From contig VCMS01000182.1 of NCBI GenBank assembly GCA_022539475.1, positions 164,419 through 228,418 of the forward strand: a stretch of DNA of 64,000 nucleotides. The letters run 5' to 3'. Source of the DNA: Gracilaria domingensis (taxonomy: Eukaryota; Rhodophyta; Florideophyceae; Gracilariales; Gracilariaceae). The notes beneath the pieces are model-generated. The model was not told the origin of the DNA and made no database searches. It saw only the letters and a program-made list of their open reading frames with translations. Shown piece by piece: positions 16,362-48,915 of the stretch (position 1 is the first letter of the stretch; every line of letters starts with the position of its first letter). The translations under genes and the position numbers were made by a program.

Positions 16362-18761
16362 ATGATAGGCCGCACGGTACGCTCTAAGGAACAGCATTCT
16401 GCAGATCCCTCTAAAGCGATGAAAGAAGCCGCTTTTCCAGGGGAATCGCAGCCACACTCGGCCTTTCAGCCATTCTGTCTTGGTAAATTGATCAACTATG
16501 CCCGAAATGCGAAGGGTATCCCACCTGAGTCCCTGAGAAGGCTTGGGGTAGCTTGCTTGCATCCGGACGAGATGCAACGCAATGGATGCAAAGTCATGGA
16601 TATTGGCGTTCTGAAAGATCTCAAGAGCTCAAATTATGTAGTAGCCTCCTTATGGCCCTTAGAAGTTGTCGACAAGGGTTTCATAGCACTTGACGACCGT
16701 TCCACGCTAGCTCTCGGACTTGATTGAAGCGACGGCCTGATACGTATGCCAAGCATGCAAGCCTCGAAGAAGAAGCCCAAAAACAGAAAAGGGAAGCGAG
16801 GAACTCGTGCACGCAAGGCTGGCCACGATCAAGGCCGGTTTCGCCACATGGATCCCGAGAGAGAAGACCAGACTGAAGCTAAATCCAGCTCTGAACACCC
16901 GCAAATGCTTAGCTTGGATCGGGTAATAAGCAGAGGTCCAGTCTTGGAGGCCCGACGCGTTCACCTAACTTGTGACGCCGACTTCGACTTTTTGTCATCA
17001 GATGAATGCACAACTATGCTTCATGCTCATTTGCTTGGCAGGGCCTTGATGCCGGGAATGACAGTTCCAGTTAATCTACTTGGCGATAATATACTGTTCA
17101 GCGTTGTGAAGGTTAATGATGATTTCGATAATCAGGAAAGGGACGGACCAGGTCCAACTGGCAAAGGGGTATACCTTTGTTCAAAGCAAACTATAGTGGA
17201 GGTCGTTTTGGGTTCACATACTCACTGCACTAAGGGCCAACGAACTTCGTATGATCTCGTAAGTTTAGCTGGACTGGACCGTCAGGTACAAGCAGCCCGG
17301 TCTATAGTAGAAGCTGTCATTTCTACCAAAACGACCGACAACGTCTTTGCACTGGAACATTCGCTGTTAACTAAGAAACCACATGGGCTTCTCATTCATG
17401 GCCCATCCGGGACTGGTAAGATTATGATGGCATGTGCGTTGGCAGCCAGCTACAGGTTGAACTTGGAAATGATCTCAGGCCCAGGGGTCGTGGGTAAGTC
17501 AACATCTGACGCTTTGCGAACATTGGAGAACTGCTTTAAGCGAGCCCGACGGAAAAGCCCAAGTTTGGTCCTGCTGGATGAGGTTGACGCGCTTGCACCA
17601 CGCAGAGATTTGCCCACTCTTGACGACGTACAGAGAAAGTTGACAGCTGCCTTATTGACAATTATGGACAATCAAGGTGGTTCAGAACTCCAAAATATTG
17701 TGGTCGTAGGGACCACAAACAGACCTGACGTCATTGATGCTGCGATGCGAAGACCCGGACGCTTCGACCGTGAAATTGAGACTATTGTGCCTAACACCCT
17801 TGCACGAGTGCAGATCCTAAGGAATTTAGTTACTGAAGCAACTGCAGAAACAATTCTAGATGAGCTTGAAAAGATTGCAGTTCTTTGTTACGGTTATGTC
17901 GGTGCGGATATCGTGTCCCCGTGGCGCGAAGCAGTGAGTTCGGCTTACGATCGAGATTCCAAGCCAACCATTTCAGTGGTCGACTTCAAGGAAGCGCTCA
18001 GAAAAGTTCGCCCAAGTGCTCTTCGAGAGATTGCTGTTGAGATTCCAAGTACAACATGGAATGATGTCGGAGGGAAGGAAGAGGCGAAACAAAGACTGAA
18101 GGAAGCAGTGGAATGGCCGTTGAGCGAGAACGGCGCACAAACATTTTTGTCTTTTGGAGTTACTCCACCTCGTGGTATTCTTCTCTACGGTCCACCAGGT
18201 TGCAGTAAAACGCTCCTAGCGAGAGCCGTCGCAACTGAATCGAAAGCAAACTTCATTTCCGTAAACGGAGCAGAACTGCTATCCAAGTGGGTCGGAGAAA
18301 GTGAGAAAGCTGTACGCAACATTTTTCGCAGGGCACGACAGGCGGCGCCCTGTGTTATCTTCTTTGATGAGATCGATGCCCTGGCCACATCGCGAAGTTT
18401 TGTAGCAGGCGCATCGGCACAGGCTCGAGTAGTGGCTCAGCTCTTGTCCGAGATGGACGGGATTGATACTGAGCGGAGCAATCGCGTTGTGGTTATCGCA
18501 GCAACTAATCGTCCGGATTGCCTAGACTCTGCCTTCCTACGACCTGGTCGGATAGATGTACAGATATATGTCGGACTCCCTGATCATAGCGAGCGGTTAT
18601 CAATACTGAACGTGCATACAAGAAAAGTACCGCTCGCAGAAGATGTGAATCTACTTGAAGTAGCCAGTTGCACAGATGGTTATTCTGGCGCAGAGCTCGC
18701 TGCCGTTGTTCGTGGAGCCGCCCTGTGTGCGAGCCATCTCAAAGCACGTCAAGAGTACTAA
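16362..18761 (+). CDS. AFG2/SPATA5-type AAA ATPase with an in-frame TGA after the N domain
   Basis: Two segments in the same frame are separated by one TGA at 16725-16727. The first (16362-16724) has CDC48 N-domain features: [18 protein letters not shown] and [20 protein letters not shown]. The second (ATG 16746) continues with the rest of the N domain, then D1 and D2. D1 Walker A reads GPSGTGKI, with Ile (codon 17421-17423) where Ser/Thr normally binds Mg-ATP; its Walker B ([11 protein letters not shown]) and RRPGRFDRE are intact. D2 has [10 protein letters not shown], the variant typical of AFG2/Drg1/SPATA5, and [10 protein letters not shown]. Family role: AAA ATPase releasing shuttling factors from pre-60S ribosomes. 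The stop may be an error, an unseen intron, or a mutation that leaves only the downstream product. Confidence 0.75.
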
Positions 18762-18842: not shown

Positions 18843-19820
18843 CTATGTTGATTTCTCTTGAGTTTGCTTGAGTTCTTGTTTCCATGCCGCATATGACCGG
18901 AATCCTACATATTCTTCAAGACGGTCTGCAAGCAGCGTTTTTTCGTCCTCATCGAGTGAGAAGCGGTTGAAACCGTTTCGATCGGCAGGTAGTACTGTCT
19001 TCGCGCCCTCTAGGCCCATCACTCTTCCTACAGAGCGGCAGTCGAAGCGCTTATCGCCTAGCATGGCCTCTCTCGTGCAGCGCGCCGCGACGCGAGTCAC
19101 ATCCTCCTCCGAGAGCACTGCGCCAACGAACGCCGCCAGCTTTCGCGTCGCGCGCGGCAGGTCTTCTACGACGTCCTCGTAGAACAACACCAGCACATTA
19201 TCCCGCGGCGTCTGCGTCCAGCTGCTCAGCATCTGTAGCCAATGGGGGTAATTTCGTGGTGCATATCTGAATATGTTCTCATCAGGTAGCACGGGCAAGC
19301 CAAGTAGCTCATGTCGCACGTACAAATGAAACACACGCTCATGTACGGCAGCATCAATCACGGTACCACCCGTCGCGAAGTCGAACAGGAAGTCGAGCAG
19401 GCTACCGACAAAACGGTTAGGATCACGCGCGCAGAACACGAAGCGCCCGACAGTCAGATCAAACATGGACGCGACGCTATGTGTCTTGAACAAGCGGGGG
19501 GATGATTCACAGCTGAGCGTGCCTGTTTGCGGCCCGTAATCGACAAACGGCGCCACGTCGTTAATCTCGTCAAACTGGGTACCATCCGGGTCGAAATCTG
19601 GTGCACCGCCAGCTGCTACAACTATCTGATAGAGCATATGCTGAAGAAGCGTGGTGCCTGCTTTGGGATTCGTCGCAATAATCACGTCGGTTGGGCGCGG
19701 TTTGTACGACTGCAGACCCGTTGCGATGGGAAAGTTTGCGCGCATGCGGTTGAAGGCGTATAACGCGTCGAGAGCGGCACGGTGCACTTGCTCGTTTCGG
19801 CGGACGGCGCGTTGACCCAT
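18843..19820 (-). CDS. Sulfotransferase family protein
   Basis: A 325-residue protein from the ATG at 19820; an in-frame ATG at 19889 would add 23 residues including a weakly hydrophobic stretch. The PAPS-binding 5'-phosphosulfate loop reads VIIATNPKAGTTLLQHML, and the 3'-phosphate-binding region is FVFCARDPNRFVGSLLDF (the family's YVxRNPKDVAVS position). Also typical are LFKTHS, where the histidine is the expected catalytic base, and DNVLVLFYEDVVEDL. It would transfer sulfate from PAPS to a small molecule or a sugar; red algae make sulfated polysaccharides, but no substrate can be read from the sequence. No strong signal peptide is seen at the shorter start. It is convergent with the AAA gene, 80 bp apart. 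Confidence 0.8.
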   Translation of the reverse strand: MGQRAVRRNEQVHRAALDALYAFNRMRANFPIATGLQSYKPRPTDVIIATNPKAGTTLLQHMLYQIVVAAGGAPDFDPDGTQFDEINDVAPFVDYGPQTGTLSCESSPRLFKTHSVASMFDLTVGRFVFCARDPNRFVGSLLDFLFDFATGGTVIDAAVHERVFHLYVRHELLGLPVLPDENIFRYAPRNYPHWLQMLSSWTQTPRDNVLVLFYEDVVEDLPRATRKLAAFVGAVLSEEDVTRVAARCTREAMLGDKRFDCRSVGRVMGLEGAKTVLPADRNGFNRFSLDEDEKTLLADRLEEYVGFRSYAAWKQELKQTQEKST

Positions 19821-20192
19821 CACGATGTGATTGTCAATGTGGGGCAGAGTATGAAGCGAATATAGAGTCGTGACTGCTGCACAAAACAAATCTCAACAGG
19901 TTAGACGCTAACCACAACAGGTGAACCGGGTACCGTCGGTACCGTCGGTGCAAAGTATTGTATACCAATCGGAACATGTTCGAATTGAAGCGATGTAAAC
20001 CGCGAATGCACTCTTTCACTTTCGCCGAAAGAGTATCCTCGTAGCCCAAGCCTGGCTCGGGCGCGCACGTGGCACGGCGTGCGAGATCAAGCGGCGCTCA
20101 AAACGGATGCGGCGCGCCGCGCGGCGCGCGCGCCGCGCCGCCGCTCACCGCCCGCAGTGCCGTCGGCCTGTCCCGCCGTCCGCGCCGCCGCC
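19821..20192. promoter_or_regulatory. Divergent region between sulfotransferase and photolyase-RUS genes
   Basis: Contains a directly repeated GTACCGTCGGTACCGTCGGT at about 19928-19948. GC content rises steeply from about 20050 toward the RUS gene. The latter's frame is open from 20079 with a GTG, but the first ATG, in a strong GCCGCCATG context, is at 20193. Confidence 0.4.
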
Positions 20193-22415
20193 ATGCGCCT
20201 GCCGTCGCCGCACGCCGCACGCGTCGTCGATCCCGTCGCCCACTCGTCCGATCCGCCTCGCGCCGCCTTTGCGCCGTCGCTGCCGTCGCTGCCGTCGCTG
20301 CCGTCATTGCGTAGCAGCGTCGCGCAGCGTTCCGCGCCGCATCGCTCGCCGCGCGCCGCGCGCGGCGCGCCCGCGTCGCAGCCGGGGCTGCTGGCGCGGA
20401 TATGGCGCCCGATGCCGGCCGCGCCGCGGTGCGGCGTGCTGTGGTTGCGCTGCGGGCAGCTGCGGCTCTCGGACAATCCGGCCGCGCACGCGGCTTCCGT
20501 GGCCAACGGCTTTCTGCTCGCGCTCGTCACGTTGCCGGATAAGCCGCTGGCGCCCATCGTCGCTTCGGCGGTGGCCGAGTTGGCGCGCTTGCTGCGGCTG
20601 GCGCGCCGGCCGTTGTTGGTGCGCGTGGCGGCCGATCAGGTGGCGGCCGCCGTAGCTGTGGCGCGTTCCGTGCGTGCCACCAGCTTGTACACTATTGCGC
20701 CGTGCGCGCGCGCGAGCCAGGCGTTGCGCGCGGCTGGTGTGCAGTTGAGGGCGTTTGCGCAGCCGTTGACGCTTAGTGAATCGCCGAGCGTGTGGCCGCC
20801 TCCACCGCCGGCCGCGGCCTCACTGCCGTCGGACATGTCGTTCAATCCATCTTTGACGCCGGCGGGTGAGACGCTGGCGCGACGCTCTCTAACCCACATG
20901 TTGAACCAAGCTAACATCACTTTGCCCATGCTGCTGGCCCGATTCCGCCATCATGTTCAAATCGGAACGCTAGCGCAACTGCGCATTCGCATTCAATTCC
21001 GTCTTGCTCGCGCTCCGCTTCCGAGGCTGGCCACCAATTCATGGCACAATCGGATCTCTTCTGCGCTTTCTTCGTTTTTCGCTCGGCTTCGACCTCCGCC
21101 GGCACTTGCCGCCCTGAGCATTGCAGCCTATGATGTCAATGGCGGTGATCGGCGAGGTGTGGAATGGGATGAAGCCGCTCAAAGCTTCGTGCTTAAAGAA
21201 TGGGAACATCAAGAAACGGAACGCCAAATGCTTCCGGAACAGCGTCTGCGTGAGTTCATGCGCCGCCGTCGCAATTTCTTTCACCGATCCTTCTTCCCAG
21301 ATGACGTCACCCCGGATTATTACTCTTTTACAGCCTGGCGCTTTGCTCAACGTTGTTTCAGCGCTACTGTCGGTGTCTTCGGTACCTCCTCCTTGCTTTT
21401 TGCTCTTGGCATCCGGTCCGGTAGGATCGGACAAGCTGCGGTCATTTCGTGGGTGTTGAAGGATGGTCTGGGTCGCGTTGGCAAGATGCTTTGGGCTGGT
21501 AGTATGGGCAAGGACTTTGATGTCGATCCCAAACGCTGGCGCTTTCGTTCGGCACTCTTGTACGTGTCTGGCAGTGGGCTTGAAATCGTCACTCAGATCT
21601 TCCCGGCATCCTTTCTTCTGTTCGCCACTGCGGCCAACACCATGAAGCAAGTTTCTATGCTCACTGCGTCGGCGACTCGTAACGCCATGTATCGGAGCTT
21701 TGGTGAGCGATCGCAGAATATTGCCAACATCACGGCAAAGGGAGAGGCTCAGATCGTTGTTGCTGACCTAATTGGCATGGGCACTGGTATTCAACTCAGC
21801 AAGATTGTTACTTCGAAAGCGCATGTTCTGGCCACATACGCTGTCCTGACTGTGATGGACATTATCGGAATCTATATGGAGCTGCGCCAGGTTGTTTTCC
21901 GTACCTTGAATGCTGAACGATCCAGTATCGTCCTCAATCACTATGTGCGCAAGGGTGAGTGTCTCTCGCCCTCACAGGTGTCTCCAAAAGAAAGAATATT
22001 CCTCAAGGAGAAGTACAAAAGCCGCATACGCCTGTCCAGCATTGCCAAAGCTGCAAATAATCCAGATGAACTGCAGTTGCTGTTGACTGTGTTTCGGCGA
22101 GAGCACTTCATCGTCACATTGCCACGTGCTGCAGACGGCGGCGCCTGTCGCCTTGTGTTGCGCAAAGATGCCTCCAATGAGGACGTTCTGCGAGCAATGC
22201 TGATGGCGGAGTACGTACATCAGGCTGTCAAGAAGAAAAATGGCAAAAAGGCGACACTCAGCAGGGAGGACAAAGAATCCATCCTCAGAAATGCTCGTAA
22301 GTCTGCGAAGCGCATGTTTCCTTCGTTCATTCGCAGTGCGAAGGGAGCCGGGTGGAACACGGATAACTTGCTGTTCAGTACGTTGAAGAGGAGAGGCTAT
22401 TGGCGACACAAGTAG
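20193..22415 (+). CDS. Photolyase N-terminal-like domain fused to a RUS (DUF647) domain
   Basis: A 740-residue protein. The start is a presequence-like region rich in A, S, P and R (residues 1-~75). Residues ~80-200 resemble the alpha/beta antenna domain of photolyases and cryptochromes: VLWLRCGQLRLSDNPAAHAA (family: W-R-x-LR-x-x-DNPAL), FLLALVTLPDK, RPLLVRVAADQVAAAVAVAR, SLYTIAPCARASQALRAAGV and QLRAFAQPLTL. No FAD domain follows. Residues ~370-640 are a clear RUS domain: FPDDVTPDYYSFTAWRF, VGVFGTSSLLFALGI, VISWVLKDGLGRVGKM, KRWRFRSALLY and AKGEAQIVVADLIGMG. RUS1/RUS2 of plants act in early seedling UV-B/light responses and plastid-linked membrane functions. The fusion suggests a flavin- or pterin-linked light input, but chromophore binding is inference only. 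The 5' half is extremely GC-rich; there is a (CCGTCGCTG)n repeat near 20277. Confidence 0.8.
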   Translation: MRLPSPHAARVVDPVAHSSDPPRAAFAPSLPSLPSLPSLRSSVAQRSAPHRSPRAARGAPASQPGLLARIWRPMPAAPRCGVLWLRCGQLRLSDNPAAHAASVANGFLLALVTLPDKPLAPIVASAVAELARLLRLARRPLLVRVAADQVAAAVAVARSVRATSLYTIAPCARASQALRAAGVQLRAFAQPLTLSESPSVWPPPPPAAASLPSDMSFNPSLTPAGETLARRSLTHMLNQANITLPMLLARFRHHVQIGTLAQLRIRIQFRLARAPLPRLATNSWHNRISSALSSFFARLRPPPALAALSIAAYDVNGGDRRGVEWDEAAQSFVLKEWEHQETERQMLPEQRLREFMRRRRNFFHRSFFPDDVTPDYYSFTAWRFAQRCFSATVGVFGTSSLLFALGIRSGRIGQAAVISWVLKDGLGRVGKMLWAGSMGKDFDVDPKRWRFRSALLYVSGSGLEIVTQIFPASFLLFATAANTMKQVSMLTASATRNAMYRSFGERSQNIANITAKGEAQIVVADLIGMGTGIQLSKIVTSKAHVLATYAVLTVMDIIGIYMELRQVVFRTLNAERSSIVLNHYVRKGECLSPSQVSPKERIFLKEKYKSRIRLSSIAKAANNPDELQLLLTVFRREHFIVTLPRAADGGACRLVLRKDASNEDVLRAMLMAEYVHQAVKKKNGKKATLSREDKESILRNARKSAKRMFPSFIRSAKGAGWNTDNLLFSTLKRRGYWRHK

Positions 22416-22630: not shown

Positions 22631-24397
22631 TTACATGGCTGAGATTTCGACGCCTGTCGTCTCTGCCTTTGTTTGGGCGTTCGCTTCTTGGGTCTTCCGC
22701 CTGTATAATCGCATGTTGAGTCCATTCTTTGTATGGATTGTAGCGCCAGTCGTCATCTGTACCTCCTGCGATGGATTGGCAAACTCGAAATCAAAACGAC
22801 GAATGATCATTGCTAGAGCAACGACAGACTCCAGGATTGCAAAATGATCCCCAACGCACTTACGGCTCCCTCCCCCAAACGGAAGGAAGGCAAAATCGGC
22901 GTGAACCTCCGTGGGGTATAGTGGACTACCATCTTCCAAACCTGACGCTGGGTTGTAGCCACGCCAGCCTTTGACGCCCGGATTTTGCTTCGGTCTGAGC
23001 CAGCGATCGGGGTCGAAGGTCTCGGGGTTGTCCCACAAATCCGGCGATCTATGTAGCGAATAAACGTTGATGAAAACGTCAGTGCCACGTCTCAGTGGCG
23101 TCTCTTTCGTAGCTGCACCTTTCGGCAATGTGGTATCTGCTAACAGTCGGCGTATGAGAAGCGGTGGAGCAGGATACAGACGCAAGCTTTCCGCCACAAG
23201 GCGACGTAGGTACGATAATCGCTGCACGTGCTCGTATGTGGGGTGACCATCGCCTACCACAGCGTCGATTTCCTCGCGAGCTTTCCGAACCATTTCAGGG
23301 TGCTTGGCCAGCTCGACAGTGGTCCACGTGAGGACGGCGGCAGTTGTCTCGTGGCCCGCAATTAGAAGCGTCATCAAGTCATCCCGGAGCTGTTGGTTGG
23401 TGGTCTGTTCACCACGCAACTCGACAAGGAAACGTAGCAAGGAAGGGTCAGTGACGTTCTCATAGTCGCGGTTCTCCAATTCGGTGAGGTCCTGCGCAGT
23501 GGCAGTACGTTTTGCGCTTAGAATAAGTGTATTAAGCGTCTCGTTGATGAGCTTCATGTCGCTATAAAACGCACGTAAACGCGGCACGACGACTTTTGCT
23601 CCGGGGATTTTCCAATAGGGAATTAAACTCATGCTGCGATGCTCGGTTTCTTTGAGCGTGCGGTACACGGCTTTGATGATGGGGCTCTCGGAGGTGATGC
23701 TGTTGAATTCAAAATTGAAGACGGCCTTGCCGATGATATCGAGGGCGAGACTGCTATACTCGGTCTCCATGTCGAGAACATGGGCGCCGTTAATACGTTG
23801 AAGCTTGTCGCATAGCGTTTGCGTGCAGGAGCCGAACATGGACGTCATGTGCTTCAACCACATGGCATGGAAGCCAGGCACAATTGCGCGTCGGCGGATC
23901 TTCCATGTGGCATAGTCCGCAGGAATGAGCCCCTTGCCCATGATTTCGTCCAGCACCTCCGCCAACACACCCTTGTCATACAAGATGTTGTTCTCCTTCA
24001 GAATGCTGCGGGCAATAATGGGGTCCTGCACGACGTAGAAGACCTTGGGCCCGAAACAGAGCTTGTAGATGGGGCCATATGCCAGAAAGGATCGATGCAA
24101 AGCGACGAAGAACGGCTCGCCGCCGATGAAAAAGGTGGTGTCGCCCTCGGCAGACGGGGCGTCATTGATGCAGGGGCGATGCCCGTAGGTCTGCAGAATG
24201 TTGTCGACCCAGAGATCGAAGGTATCGCGCAAGGTGAGCGGGGCAGGCGGCTCCAAGGCGCGGTGCGCCGGCGAAGGCGGATCCACCAGCGCGGCGGAAA
24301 CGCGCTGTCGGCGACGGGCGCGCGCATCACAAAGCGGCGGCGAGCGCTGGCGCGCAGCAACGCGCGCCGGGAAGGCGGCGGGAACAAAGGCAGCCAT
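22631..24397 (-). CDS. Cytochrome P450, CYP97-like carotenoid ring hydroxylase, plastid-targeted
   Basis: From ATG 24397 this is 588 residues, beginning MAAFVPAAFPARVAARQRSP, a credible transit peptide. The P450 core matches the CYP97 family: GPIYKLCFGPKVFYVVQDP, GLIPADYATWKIRRRAIVPG, helix-I AGHETTAAVLTW (oxygen-activation threonine), helix-K ESLRLYP (ExxR), and the haem loop FLPFGGGSRKCVGDHFA with the cysteine ligand. CYP97 enzymes hydroxylate the rings of alpha- or beta-carotene to make lutein or zeaxanthin, and some in red algae act on zeaxanthin precursors. Which ring is used cannot be told here. The frame is open upstream to 24601, but those residues look untranslated. It is convergent with the RUS gene, 215 bp apart. 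Confidence 0.88.
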   Translation of the reverse strand: MAAFVPAAFPARVAARQRSPPLCDARARRRQRVSAALVDPPSPAHRALEPPAPLTLRDTFDLWVDNILQTYGHRPCINDAPSAEGDTTFFIGGEPFFVALHRSFLAYGPIYKLCFGPKVFYVVQDPIIARSILKENNILYDKGVLAEVLDEIMGKGLIPADYATWKIRRRAIVPGFHAMWLKHMTSMFGSCTQTLCDKLQRINGAHVLDMETEYSSLALDIIGKAVFNFEFNSITSESPIIKAVYRTLKETEHRSMSLIPYWKIPGAKVVVPRLRAFYSDMKLINETLNTLILSAKRTATAQDLTELENRDYENVTDPSLLRFLVELRGEQTTNQQLRDDLMTLLIAGHETTAAVLTWTTVELAKHPEMVRKAREEIDAVVGDGHPTYEHVQRLSYLRRLVAESLRLYPAPPLLIRRLLADTTLPKGAATKETPLRRGTDVFINVYSLHRSPDLWDNPETFDPDRWLRPKQNPGVKGWRGYNPASGLEDGSPLYPTEVHADFAFLPFGGGSRKCVGDHFAILESVVALAMIIRRFDFEFANPSQEVQMTTGATIHTKNGLNMRLYRRKTQEANAQTKAETTGVEISAM

Positions 24398-25347
24398 GGC
24401 GGCGGTGGGCGAGAAGGGGCGGCGAGGGCAGGAGCGCGGCGGGGGCGAACGGGGCGGGCGGCCGGAGGGGGAGGCAGGGGCGATCTGGGCGCCATTTGAG
24501 TGGACGGCGCCATTGAGCGCGCAGATACGCAAATCAAGGCGCGTGGCGCGAGGTGCGGTGGCGTTTCGCGACCACGTCGGTTCGGTAATGAGCCGCCACA
24601 CGCGCGCGCTTGCCGCGCGCGCACCTCGCGCCGCACCTGTTCATTCGTTCCGCGCGCCATTCGCGTGCCGTCGCCGTGATCTCGGCAACCCTGCGCCTGC
24701 CACGGAGCACACGTTCACACACAATCACGCGGATGAACTGCTACGTGTCGCCCGCGGATGCGCGCTTGCGTTTCAAGCGGCGCTCCATGCGCTACTAGAG
24801 ATGTCCTCAACAATTCTGTCGCAGCCCTGAAGAGAAGAGTGGGATCGTATTTTGATACTGTACCTTTGTACACAACGAACAGAACGTCCGCTCCTTATCT
24901 TTCTAACAGAAATGGATCTGAGCGCCTCTTCGCTGGCTTTGACGCAACACAAAAGTTGCGGCTCGGAGGCTAATCCGTCTAGCACTCTTCTTTGAAGCAC
25001 AAGACGAAACGGTTTGTTTGCACTTGCTTCTTCTTCAGTCAAGACTGCACCATTAGATGCAGGAAGAGTTCCACAATACATTATGGTCAACCCGTCTTCG
25101 GAACGACATAAGTAAAGTCTACTGCCGTGCGCTTCACAATACGTTTTGCTGGACTGATCAGCTGATCGAAGACATTCGGTATAGTTTTTGCTGACAGAAT
25201 GAACATTCGCAAGTTCTTTCGAACAAATAGTTCACCACAAGAGAACCGTCAAGGACCAAACTGCAAACACTCAAAGAGGCCGAGATTTTGTCGCCATCAC
25301 CGCAGACAAATTAGTGCATGCTTCGGCTTCAAGCGATCCAATCAACC
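24398..25347. other. Intergenic region upstream of CYP97
   Basis: GC-rich to about 24700 (promoter side of CYP97), then AT-rich. No gene is recognised. It ends at an A8 run (25348-25355) where the interspersed repeat begins. Confidence 0.45.
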
Positions 25348-46124: not shown

Positions 46125-47722
46125 CTAGTAGAATGTCTGATATGACGGCGAGAACGCCGGCACACTAGGATTGAGCACTCTATGTGCGCCCTTTCCAGAT
46201 TTGGTGGGAGACGAGTCGCTACTATCACTCTTCTCCAAACAGCTCCCATCAGCATCAGTTTCACTGTCACCGTCCTGACTGTTCTCGTCCGCTTCACTGT
46301 GCGGTTTAGACTCACTGGCGTCAGCGTGATCACTCGCGCTGTCGTCATTCTCGTTCGGCGCGTCCAGATCGCCTTGTTGCTTCTCACGCAGTTCCATACG
46401 CGCCGTAAAGCCCACAGTGCCGTCAGGTCCCTTCGGCTTTCGCGGCGGCACATAGGTCTTGAAAGTGGGCGCACGAATGCCGGACGAGCCATTTTCAGCG
46501 TCACCGTCCGCATTCATAGCCGACCTGGGCTTGAACCAGTTGATGCCCTGCAGTTCCTCCTGACTGGGCGGCACAGCGTTGGGGTCAGTATTCTTGTCCA
46601 GGTTGAGCGTGTTATCGCGCGCTTTTCTCTTGTGCTCCATGGCGAGCTTCCTGGCGTCGGCTTTTGCTTCCATGGCTTCCTTGTGCCACTCGGCGGCGCG
46701 CTCCGGGTCCTTTGTGACGTGCAGCAGGCGGCTGCCGGATGGGTCGAAGCGACTGATGTGGCCGAGGTTCAAGCTCTCGCAGATGTTGTGCACCATCTTG
46801 CGTTCGTACGAGGTGAGGCTGGCGTCGAAGACCACGTCCTTGCCCTTGCTGTCCTTGAGCTCGTCGTTGGCGTACTGGGTGAGCAAGGCGCGGAACTGGG
46901 CGTCCCTGAGCTTGTCCTTCTCGGTCTTGAGCTCGAACTTGTTGTTGTTGTTGTTGTTGTTGTTGCTGCTGTTATTGTTGAGGACGTGGTTGGCGTTTTG
47001 CTGGGCGTCCTTCTTGACGGTGTCGCGCTTGGCGAAGAAGGCGACCCTCTTGTCGACGGCGACGCCGTTGGCGTCGACCTGCGGCTGCACGTCCTTTTCA
47101 AAGGTTTGGCGCTGGTTGTAGTTGTAGTTGTCGTACTTTTTGAAGCGGCGCACGTGGTCCTTCTTCTCGCCCGGGCGCAGGCGGCGGTACTCGGCAATGA
47201 CGCGGCGGTCGTTGATGACCATCTTGCTGAGCTCGGCCAGCGCGGCGGTGGCGTCGCGCGTGGTGTGGAAGTTGACAAAGGCCATGCCGCGAAACTGGCC
47301 GGTGTGCTTGTCGTCGATGAGGGTGATGCTGACAAAGTGGTTCTGCGCGTCTGTGACACGACGCACGACGGTCTCCAGGATGGACTGCGTGATGCTGTAG
47401 TCCAGGTTCTTGAGCACGACGCAGTTGGTGGGCGGCGGCGGCGGCTGGTGCTTCCACTTGGCGCCCTTGTTGTTGTTGTTGTTGTTGTTGTTATGATGGT
47501 GGTGGTGGTGGTGGTGGTTATGATGGTGGTGATGGTGCGGGCTGTGCTGGTGCGGGTGCTGGTGGGCGTGGTGCGGCGCGAGCGGGCTGCTCGGCGCGGC
47601 GGCGTCCGCCACGCCGTTGGACACGGCGGCCGGGCTGAGCGGCGGCTGCGGCAGGCGCAGCGGCGGCGCGCGCGGCGCGTCGGCGCGCGGCGCAGGCGGC
47701 GCGGGCGCGGCACACACGTCGC

Positions 47723-47757
<35 letters not shown>

Positions 47758-47796
47758 CGGGGGGTCGGGGAGCGCGTCGGCGAGGCCGCTGGCCAT
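46125..47796 (-). CDS. RRM and R3H domain RNA-binding protein, with a probable indel in a C6 run
   Basis: The best start is ATG 47796 (MASGLADALPD). That frame fails a few codons later, but the main frame takes over at once as RAPAPAPAPAPARDV if one base is removed from the C6 run at 47759-47764. This suggests a sequencing indel. The protein would be ~555 residues: a proline/alanine-rich start, histidine and asparagine runs, an RRM (NCVVLKNLDYSIT as RNP2, QFRGMAFVNFHTT as RNP1), then FKKYDNYNYNQ, an R3H domain (YERKMVHNICESLNLGHISR, with S-R-L-L-H-V) and an acidic C terminus. RRM plus R3H is found in proteins of mRNA fate in fungi and algae. The exact role is unknown. Homopolymer codons come from GTT, GTG and GGC repeats. 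Confidence 0.75.
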
Positions 47797-47881
47797 GGCG
47801 GGTTTGGGGTGGGGGGGGGAAGGAGCGGAAGGAGGGGGCGGGCGCGGCAGGGCGGCCGGAGGCGGCGGTGCGGAGCGGCGG

Positions 47882-47913
<32 letters not shown>

Positions 47914-47972
47914 GCTTGGCGCGGCGCGGACGCGGGCGCGCTGCGCGCGCGCAGCGCGGCAGCCGTTTTAAG

Positions 47973-47996
47973 GCGCGCGCGCGCGCGCGCGCGCGC
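47973..47996. repeat. (GC)12 dinucleotide run in a divergent promoter
   Basis: Twelve uninterrupted GC dinucleotides between the divergent RRM-R3H and HscB genes, immediately after a TTTTAAGG stretch. Alternating GC tracts can adopt Z-DNA; any regulatory role is inference. Confidence 0.9.
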
Positions 47997-48099
47997 AACT
48001 GTCGCGCACCGAACGTTTGCGCGCGCACGCCGCCGCGCGCTGGCCACGTGGGCGCGCCGCTGGCCGCGCGCGCGCCGATGCGATGAGACAAACCGCTCG

Positions 48100-48366
48100 G
48101 CGGCGGCGGCGGCGGCGGCGCGCTCCCCGCAGCGCGCGACCACGATGCAGCGGCAGCAGCAGCACGCGCTGGCGCGGCTGCGCGCGGCGGCGGCGGCGGC
48201 GGCGCGCTCCCCGCAGCGCGCGACCACGATGCAGCGGCAGCAGCAGCACGCGCTGGCGCGGCTGCGCGCGGCGGCGGCGGCGGCGGCGCGCTCCCCGCAG
48301 CGCGCGACCACGATGCAGCAGCAGCAGCAGCAGCAGCAGCAGCACTCGCTGGCGCGGCTGCGCGCG
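48100..48366 (+). repeat. 84-bp tandem repeat, three copies, each with its own ATG
   Basis: Copies of (GCG)n - CGCTCCCCGCAGCGCGCGAC - CACGATGCAG - CAG run - CTGGCGCGGCTGCGC repeat with a strict 84-bp period. The ATGs fall at 48145, 48229 and 48313. Because 84 is 28 codons, all three are in the hscB frame. The third copy has a longer CAG run and an altered end. Confidence 0.93.
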
Positions 48367-48630
48367 CCGGCGGCGCGCGCGCTGTGCTCGCAGCCGCCGC
48401 GCAGCCTGTTCGGCGTGCTGGGCGTGGCGGAGCGCTTCGCGCTGGACGACGCGCAGCTGTCGGCGCGCTTCCGCCAGCTGCAGCGCCGCTGGCACCCCGA
48501 CCGCTTCCACGCCGCCGGCGCCGCCGAGCAGGCCGCCGCGCGCGCCATGTCCGCCGCGCTCAACGACGCGTACGCCACGCTGCGCGCGCCGCACGCGCGC
48601 GCGCGCCACCTGCTGGCGCTGCGCGCGCCG

Positions 48631-48677
<47 letters not shown>

Positions 48678-48915
48678 GCCGCCGCCGCCGTTCCTGGCGT
48701 GGGTGCTGGCGTTCCGCGAGCAGGTGGCCGCCGCGCGCGGCGACGCGCCGCGCCTGCGCGCGCTGTCGGCCGCGCTGGCGCGCCGCGCGGACGAGTGCGT
48801 GCGCCGCACCGCCGCCGCCTTCGAGCGCGACGAGCTGCGCGCCGCCGCGCGCCACACCGCCGAGCTGCAGTACTACCACCGCCTGCGCGCCGCGCTGCAC
48901 GACGCCGCCGCCTAG
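48145..48915 (+). CDS. hscB: Iron-sulfur cluster co-chaperone HscB (J protein)
   Basis: From the first ATG this is 256 residues; starting at the third (48313) gives 200. Each start begins with MQ, a glutamine run and LARLR, followed by a basic, alanine-rich presequence typical of mitochondria. The J domain has SLFGVLGVAERFALDDAQLS and LQRRWHPDRFHAAG with the HPD tripeptide, then AALNDAYATLRAPHARARHL as in HscB (the family's A-L-N-x-A-Y-x-T-L-x-x-P). A polyalanine insert follows, and then the C-terminal three-helix domain (FLAWVLAFREQVAAARGDAP ... FERDELRAAARHTAELQYY). It delivers the ISCU scaffold to mitochondrial HSP70. GC content is extreme throughout. The gene is convergent with VTA1, 38 bp apart. 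Confidence 0.9.

Follow-up and report, generated by a model that had tools for sequence, protein, structure and literature searches.

What is the front half of a photolyase doing at the start of a RUS ('root UV-B sensitive', DUF647) protein? The question is raised by one gene in a 64,000-nucleotide stretch (the window) of the 77.9-Mb genome of the red alga Gracilaria domingensis (contig VCMS01000182.1, positions 164,419 to 228,418). The gene (P0001; window positions 20193..22415, forward strand) is a complete coding frame of 740 residues plus a stop, with no stop inside its 740 codons, and shares its MRL start with the close relative P0002 (81% identity across 100% of the query in a database search). 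The protein belongs to the RUS family, carrying both the PF04884 (RUS/DUF647) core (residues 351-587, 21243..21953, Pfam E 7.9e-63), rich in long helices, and the PF24160 C-terminal domain (residues 590-728, 21960..22376, Pfam E 2.5e-14). It also matches the solved 'RUS family member 1' structure 9sdh (phmmer E 2.2e-33), and its predicted model contains a series of long helices across residues 374-566. The RUS part begins with a beta-rich stretch (GVEWDE...F.L; residues 313-350, 21129..21242; model strands at 313-316, 319-326 and 331-334), and a similar stretch is found in P0065, a relative lacking the photolyase-type module.

The region preceding the RUS part is homologous to the front half of a photolyase or cryptochrome. 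A disordered leader and candidate plastid transit peptide (residues 1-75, 20193..20417; predicted local distance difference test score (pLDDT) mostly <50 over residues 1-74) is followed by an alpha/beta domain (residues ~76-190, 20418..20762) that bears the LRxxD(N) signature of the N-terminal alpha/beta domain of photolyases and cryptochromes. The original prediction proposed PF00875 (DNA_photolyase) as a check on this domain, and the answer is mixed: the Pfam match (residues 82-175) is weak and below the cut-off, while profile comparison (P 9e-17) and structure comparison both confirm the photolyase type. The profile P values and structure matches rule out a chance origin of the weak Pfam match. 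The domain leads into a PxxxPxxP connector and the first helices of the photolyase flavin adenine dinucleotide (FAD) domain, with the pattern GE...L...G-x-(L/I)-(S/A)-x-x-R (residues ~191-281, 20763..21035), as seen from the profile, the structure match and conserved residues. The helical part by itself (residues 205-310) scores P 2e-6 in the profile comparison, ruling out an N domain alone. The FAD-binding domain PF03441 has no Pfam match in the protein at E <= 10, and the VIA-align structure matches to photolyases (50 rows) stop at model residues 274-281, so the earlier claim of a missing FAD domain holds for all but its first helices. A variable linker (residues 282-312, 21036..21128; pLDDT <50 at 278-286 and 296-310) joins the module to the RUS part.

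The predicted in-frame fusion of a photolyase-type domain to an intact RUS protein is borne out by the open frame together with the profile and PF04884 scores. That two neighbouring genes, or a missed intron, have been read as one protein is hardly credible, given 740 codons without a stop and 55 further proteins whose parts follow one another in the same order. Three of these (P0002, P0025 and P0057) have the full layout within one open frame, which counts against two separate genes; their record names are in a style that we take to be transcriptome-derived.

The layout recurs among red algae, as the search suggested in the original prediction was meant to reveal. The database search with the window protein returned 68 relatives, the closest named ones being from Agarophyton chilense (88% identity over 70%) and Gracilariopsis chorda (72% over 97%). 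Relatives with a named source come from Gracilariopsis, Agarophyton, Chondrus, Pyropia, Porphyridium, Rhodosorus, Cyanidiococcus and Galdieria, the last with two named entries and one more assigned by its code. In the full set of 72 proteins (P0001-P0072), the module region is present in 56, P0001 included, and absent from five (P0065-P0069), and 11 are too short or cut at the N terminus (P0005, P0032, P0039, P0040, P0041, P0047, P0048, P0058 and P0070-P0072). Alignment A1 holds 61 proteins, and the counts on 56 given below drop P0039, P0040, P0041, P0058 and P0065 from it. When the 61 were scanned one by one, PF04884 was found in all of them and PF00875 at E <= 1 in 51 (best 6.6e-12). A search with the module only (residues 74-330) gave eight proteins at E <= 1, all of them already among these relatives, and a search with the diverse alignment A2 gave 69 proteins, of which three were new (P0070-P0072) and lacked PF00875; each scored the ~7995 candidates sharing most words, a limit at which a fusion outside red algae is neither shown nor excluded. 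A PF00875 search of the genome returned 22 matches without the window gene, indicating that such fused copies escape that search.

The layout is new to the literature searched, as the original prediction had supposed, but is already present in databases: precomputed PF00875 and PF04884 annotations occur together in 25 of the 68 relatives, and a UniRef entry from Galdieria partita is named as photolyase/cryptochrome alpha/beta. No description of a DUF647/RUS-photolyase fusion was found in that literature, which included few subscription journals. Both 'root UV-B sensitive' and 'photolyase' occur in four papers which, judging by their titles and the starts of their abstracts, deal with UV-B or light in plants. 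Papers given here by PMC number are cited from portions of their text; in the portions of main text covered, RUS is mentioned neither in a photolyase survey with unassigned red algal members (PMC9498864) nor in a study of Gracilariopsis cryptochromes (PMC10853006).

The FAD site is lost from the module. In photolyases, the TS of the TSxLS motif contacts FAD; it is kept in 1/56 fused proteins, and the second serine in 10/56. R91, D94 and E226 are invariant (56/56), and P202 (55/56), G258 (55/56) and R264 (52/56) are nearly so. An arginine and a serine are the two residues described as conserved throughout the superfamily (PMC4564169). Strand 2 is followed by a stretch (columns of residues 113-126 in the alignment) that has 14 residues in 30 of the 56 proteins, including P0001; it measures 6-15 residues in 51 and 19-30 in the other five. 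For photolyase-type frames elsewhere in the genome, a count by hand gives this stretch ~28 residues for L006 and L010, 22-23 for L007 and L014, and 13 for L016. Median pairwise identity (1540 pairs each) is 27% in the alpha/beta domain and 25% in the helical part, against 77% in the RUS core. On the same trimmed columns, the median is 25% among 19 fused modules and 41.6% among 23 DASH/PHR2 proteins, of which 20 are bacterial or archaeal and which, having been gathered through conserved peptide patterns, are biased towards well-conserved members. By these alignments, the module appears to evolve faster than the compared photolyases. The original prediction had suggested that light or folate/flavin sensing is coupled to RUS function, and these results do not support it. 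A light sensor, whose N domain would still bind an antenna chromophore and relay a light signal to RUS, is very unlikely with most of the FAD pocket gone, the strand-2 loop shortened in most proteins and sequence constraint weaker than in the compared DASH/PHR2 photolyases.

The fusion appears to be old. Four modules were each held out, along with their whole group, from the profile used to score them, and all were recognised: Galdieria P0051 (P 6e-22), Porphyridium P0061 (2e-14), P0062, which groups with Cyanidiococcus (2e-10), and Rhodosorus P0057 (9e-22). These groups belong to Galdieriales, Porphyridiales, Cyanidiales and the class Stylonematophyceae, so the last ancestor shared by all living red algae probably had the fusion already. 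A single origin of the fusion is probable. A maximum-likelihood module tree covers 19 of the 56 fused proteins, eight frames from this genome and, from bacteria or archaea, 26 of 72 loci. The 19 fused proteins form one clade with 100% support; its position, with DASH/PHR2 on one side and the remaining classes on the other, has moderate support. Approximately unbiased (AU) tests, for which no plant PHR2 was included, did not reject a grouping of the module with class I/III/CRY-like proteins (p 0.56), with the two PHR2-like frames (p 0.25) or with L016 (p 0.18). Grouping with class II was rejected (p 0.002), the sole rejection among seven constraints. The donor class is thus not distinguishable by the tree and AU test.

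In the RUS-core tree, the fused proteins also group together, except that the module-less P0065 is nested inside (the closest nodes have support of 95 and 89). P0065 is 552 residues long and has, by eye, a leader resembling the secondary red plastid type. Its alga may have inherited a red RUS gene through a secondary red plastid and then lost the module. P0065, a RUS protein among red ones without the module, and the low sequence conservation of the module would both suit a passenger, that is, a relic captured upstream of RUS and tolerated as a spacer with no specific role. We consider this distinctly unlikely, given three residues invariant in 56/56 proteins and the recognition of held-out modules from four deep groups at P <= 2e-10.

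A fold that is kept while its sequence drifts points to a structural or docking role, as far as alignments can tell. In the reading that we regard, on balance, as probable, an ancient fusion of a photolyase/cryptochrome front half to RUS has been kept vertically in red algae, and the flavin-free half serves as a soluble docking domain. The protein would be imported into the plastid, and its RUS helices would be seated in the membrane. The half-photolyase, having neither flavin nor light chemistry, would keep a partner, either another RUS protein or an enzyme served by RUS, beside the membrane part, and would have retained for this the alpha/beta and helical surfaces that cryptochromes use in protein contacts. 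We infer plastid import from the leader and from the localisation of plant RUS proteins; phenylalanine occurs within residues 2-12 in 36 of the 55 proteins starting with methionine, whereas chance alone would give about one third at a phenylalanine content of 4%. The placement on a plastid membrane protein is suggested by the long helices in our model and by Chlamydomonas RUS1, whose DUF647 domain has four predicted membrane helices and a predicted resemblance to transporters (PMC13115044). Chlamydomonas also needs RUS1 to grow in the cold, in a way that depends on light (PMC13115044). In Arabidopsis, RUS1 and RUS2 act jointly and affect auxin and vitamin B6, and the mutants show ultraviolet-B-dependent arrest; RUS1, RUS2 and RUS6 are required in early plant development (PMC8146622).

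Several points weigh against the reading of an ancient fusion that serves as a docking domain. Fast drift would also suit a relaxed, little-used domain under weak selection, and the bias of the DASH/PHR2 yardstick bears on the rate comparison itself. The transit peptide is only suggestive, and the relative placement of module and RUS part in the model is uncertain (predicted template modelling score (pTM) 0.56). At E <= 1, PF00875 is unmatched in 10 of the 61 aligned proteins, and P0061, P0063 and P0064 have no match even at E <= 10, although the profile test does detect the module in P0061 and in P0062, which is grouped with P0063 and P0064. Half photolyases are not necessarily inactive, since Chlamydomonas PHR2, which has a short FAD domain by its family description, is reported to repair DNA (PMC4564169, PMC9498864). 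Finally, the invariant R91, D94 and E226 might serve a ligand site instead. In that case the Rossmann-like half would keep a site for a small molecule (a nucleotide, a cofactor, perhaps a form of vitamin B6 or flavin) and signal its level to RUS independently of light. The alpha/beta fold, the three invariant residues and the link of RUS1/RUS2 to vitamin B6 homeostasis (PMC8146622) agree with such a sensor. We nevertheless hold it to be fairly unlikely, since variation is free at most positions of the module, the invariant residues may have a structural role, and the strand-2 loop is short except in the five proteins with 19-30 residues.

The docking reading can be extended by a Rosetta-stone argument, in which PHR2-type half photolyases and RUS proteins would form one plastid complex: one such half would have joined the RUS chain in red algae, and in green plants the separate PHR2 would bind RUS1/RUS2 and set their activity. 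The incomplete FAD domain of PHR2 has been called unexplained (PMC4564169). The DNA repair by Chlamydomonas PHR2 and a tree that does not tie the module to PHR2 count against this extension, which we regard as a long shot. RUS proteins have no settled biochemical role, and a domain fused to one of them throughout red algae is a rare clue to their partners. The persistence of a photolyase half for so long without a flavin site also bears on how the plant half photolyase PHR2 may work.

The genome contains three other RUS genes (L002, L003 and L004). L002, like P0065-P0069, shows no module in the profile test (P >= 0.11), while the whole-module scores of L003 (P 0.0019) and L004 (P 0.012), though weak, were each reached by 0/40 shuffles. 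L003 (622-2523) is a RUS paralogue with a weak, doubtful trace of the module: its N part scores P 0.0006 against the module N part and 0.0011 against a longer profile (0/100 shuffles each), and its score against photolyases was equalled by 3/100 shuffles. From these scores, L003 is possibly a second, decayed fusion. It lies nearest to the fused group in the RUS-core tree, with a support of only 56, and the genome search score places L002 closer (E 4e-55, versus 9.6e-44 for L003). L002 gives the best match to 9sdh (E 3.1e-41) among three proteins set against it, ahead of the window protein and L004 (2.7e-23), and the automatic names of the relatives conflict (RUS1, RUS2 and RUS6).

Three open frames (L006, L010 and L016) are PHR2-like, a label that rests on their truncation. 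L016 (C6:392928-393389) encodes a half photolyase with a short stretch after strand 2, as in most fused modules, and is a candidate relative of the module donor by sequence, a link that the tree leaves unsettled. Eight other loci (L007, L008, L009, L011, L012, L013, L018 and L019) are closely related cryptochrome-like frames with 58-98% identity over the aligned parts of the pairs reported, several of them shortened or containing stops. One cryptochrome gene has been amplified here, and a mobile element may have carried the copies. In the window, the fusion gene is flanked by frames identified by eye as a two-domain AAA ATPase (16746-18761, forward), a sulfotransferase-like protein (18843-19889, reverse) and a cytochrome P450-like protein (22631-24601, reverse), which have no evident tie to it. 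Further along, an HSC20/J-domain-like frame (47617-48915, by eye) contains an 84-bp repeat (28 residues), in frame and in about three copies, and ends within a stretch of 80% guanine plus cytosine.

Among known proteins, PHR2/PPL partly resembles the module in combining a photolyase N domain with a short FAD part, which is ~95 residues long in plant PHR2 (PMC4564169). In the PHR2-like L006, L010 and L016, the FAD part extends further, to WR(D/E)F/L-x-R, whereas the module is truncated earlier; none of these is fused to RUS within its open frame, and the tree and AU test neither join the module to them nor separate it from them. PHR2 is described as absent from non-green algae (PMC4564169) and PPL as found in some red algae (PMC9498864); the three frames agree with the latter and contrast with the former, within the text cited. 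Arabidopsis PHR2 is reported to show no DNA repair in the chloroplast (PMC4564169). CRY-DASH and other photolyases or cryptochromes (such as 1np7, 2j07 and 1qnf) share the fold over residues 1 to ~280, with LRxxD and G-x-L-S-x-x-R in common, but the module has neither the rest of their FAD domain nor the TS of TSxLS, and in most cases not their longer loop after strand 2. On the RUS side, Arabidopsis RUS1-RUS6 and RUSF1 (9sdh) have PF04884, PF24160 and the series of long helices as in the window protein, and in Chlamydomonas RUS1 the extra domain is a different one and lies at the C terminus (PMC13115044).
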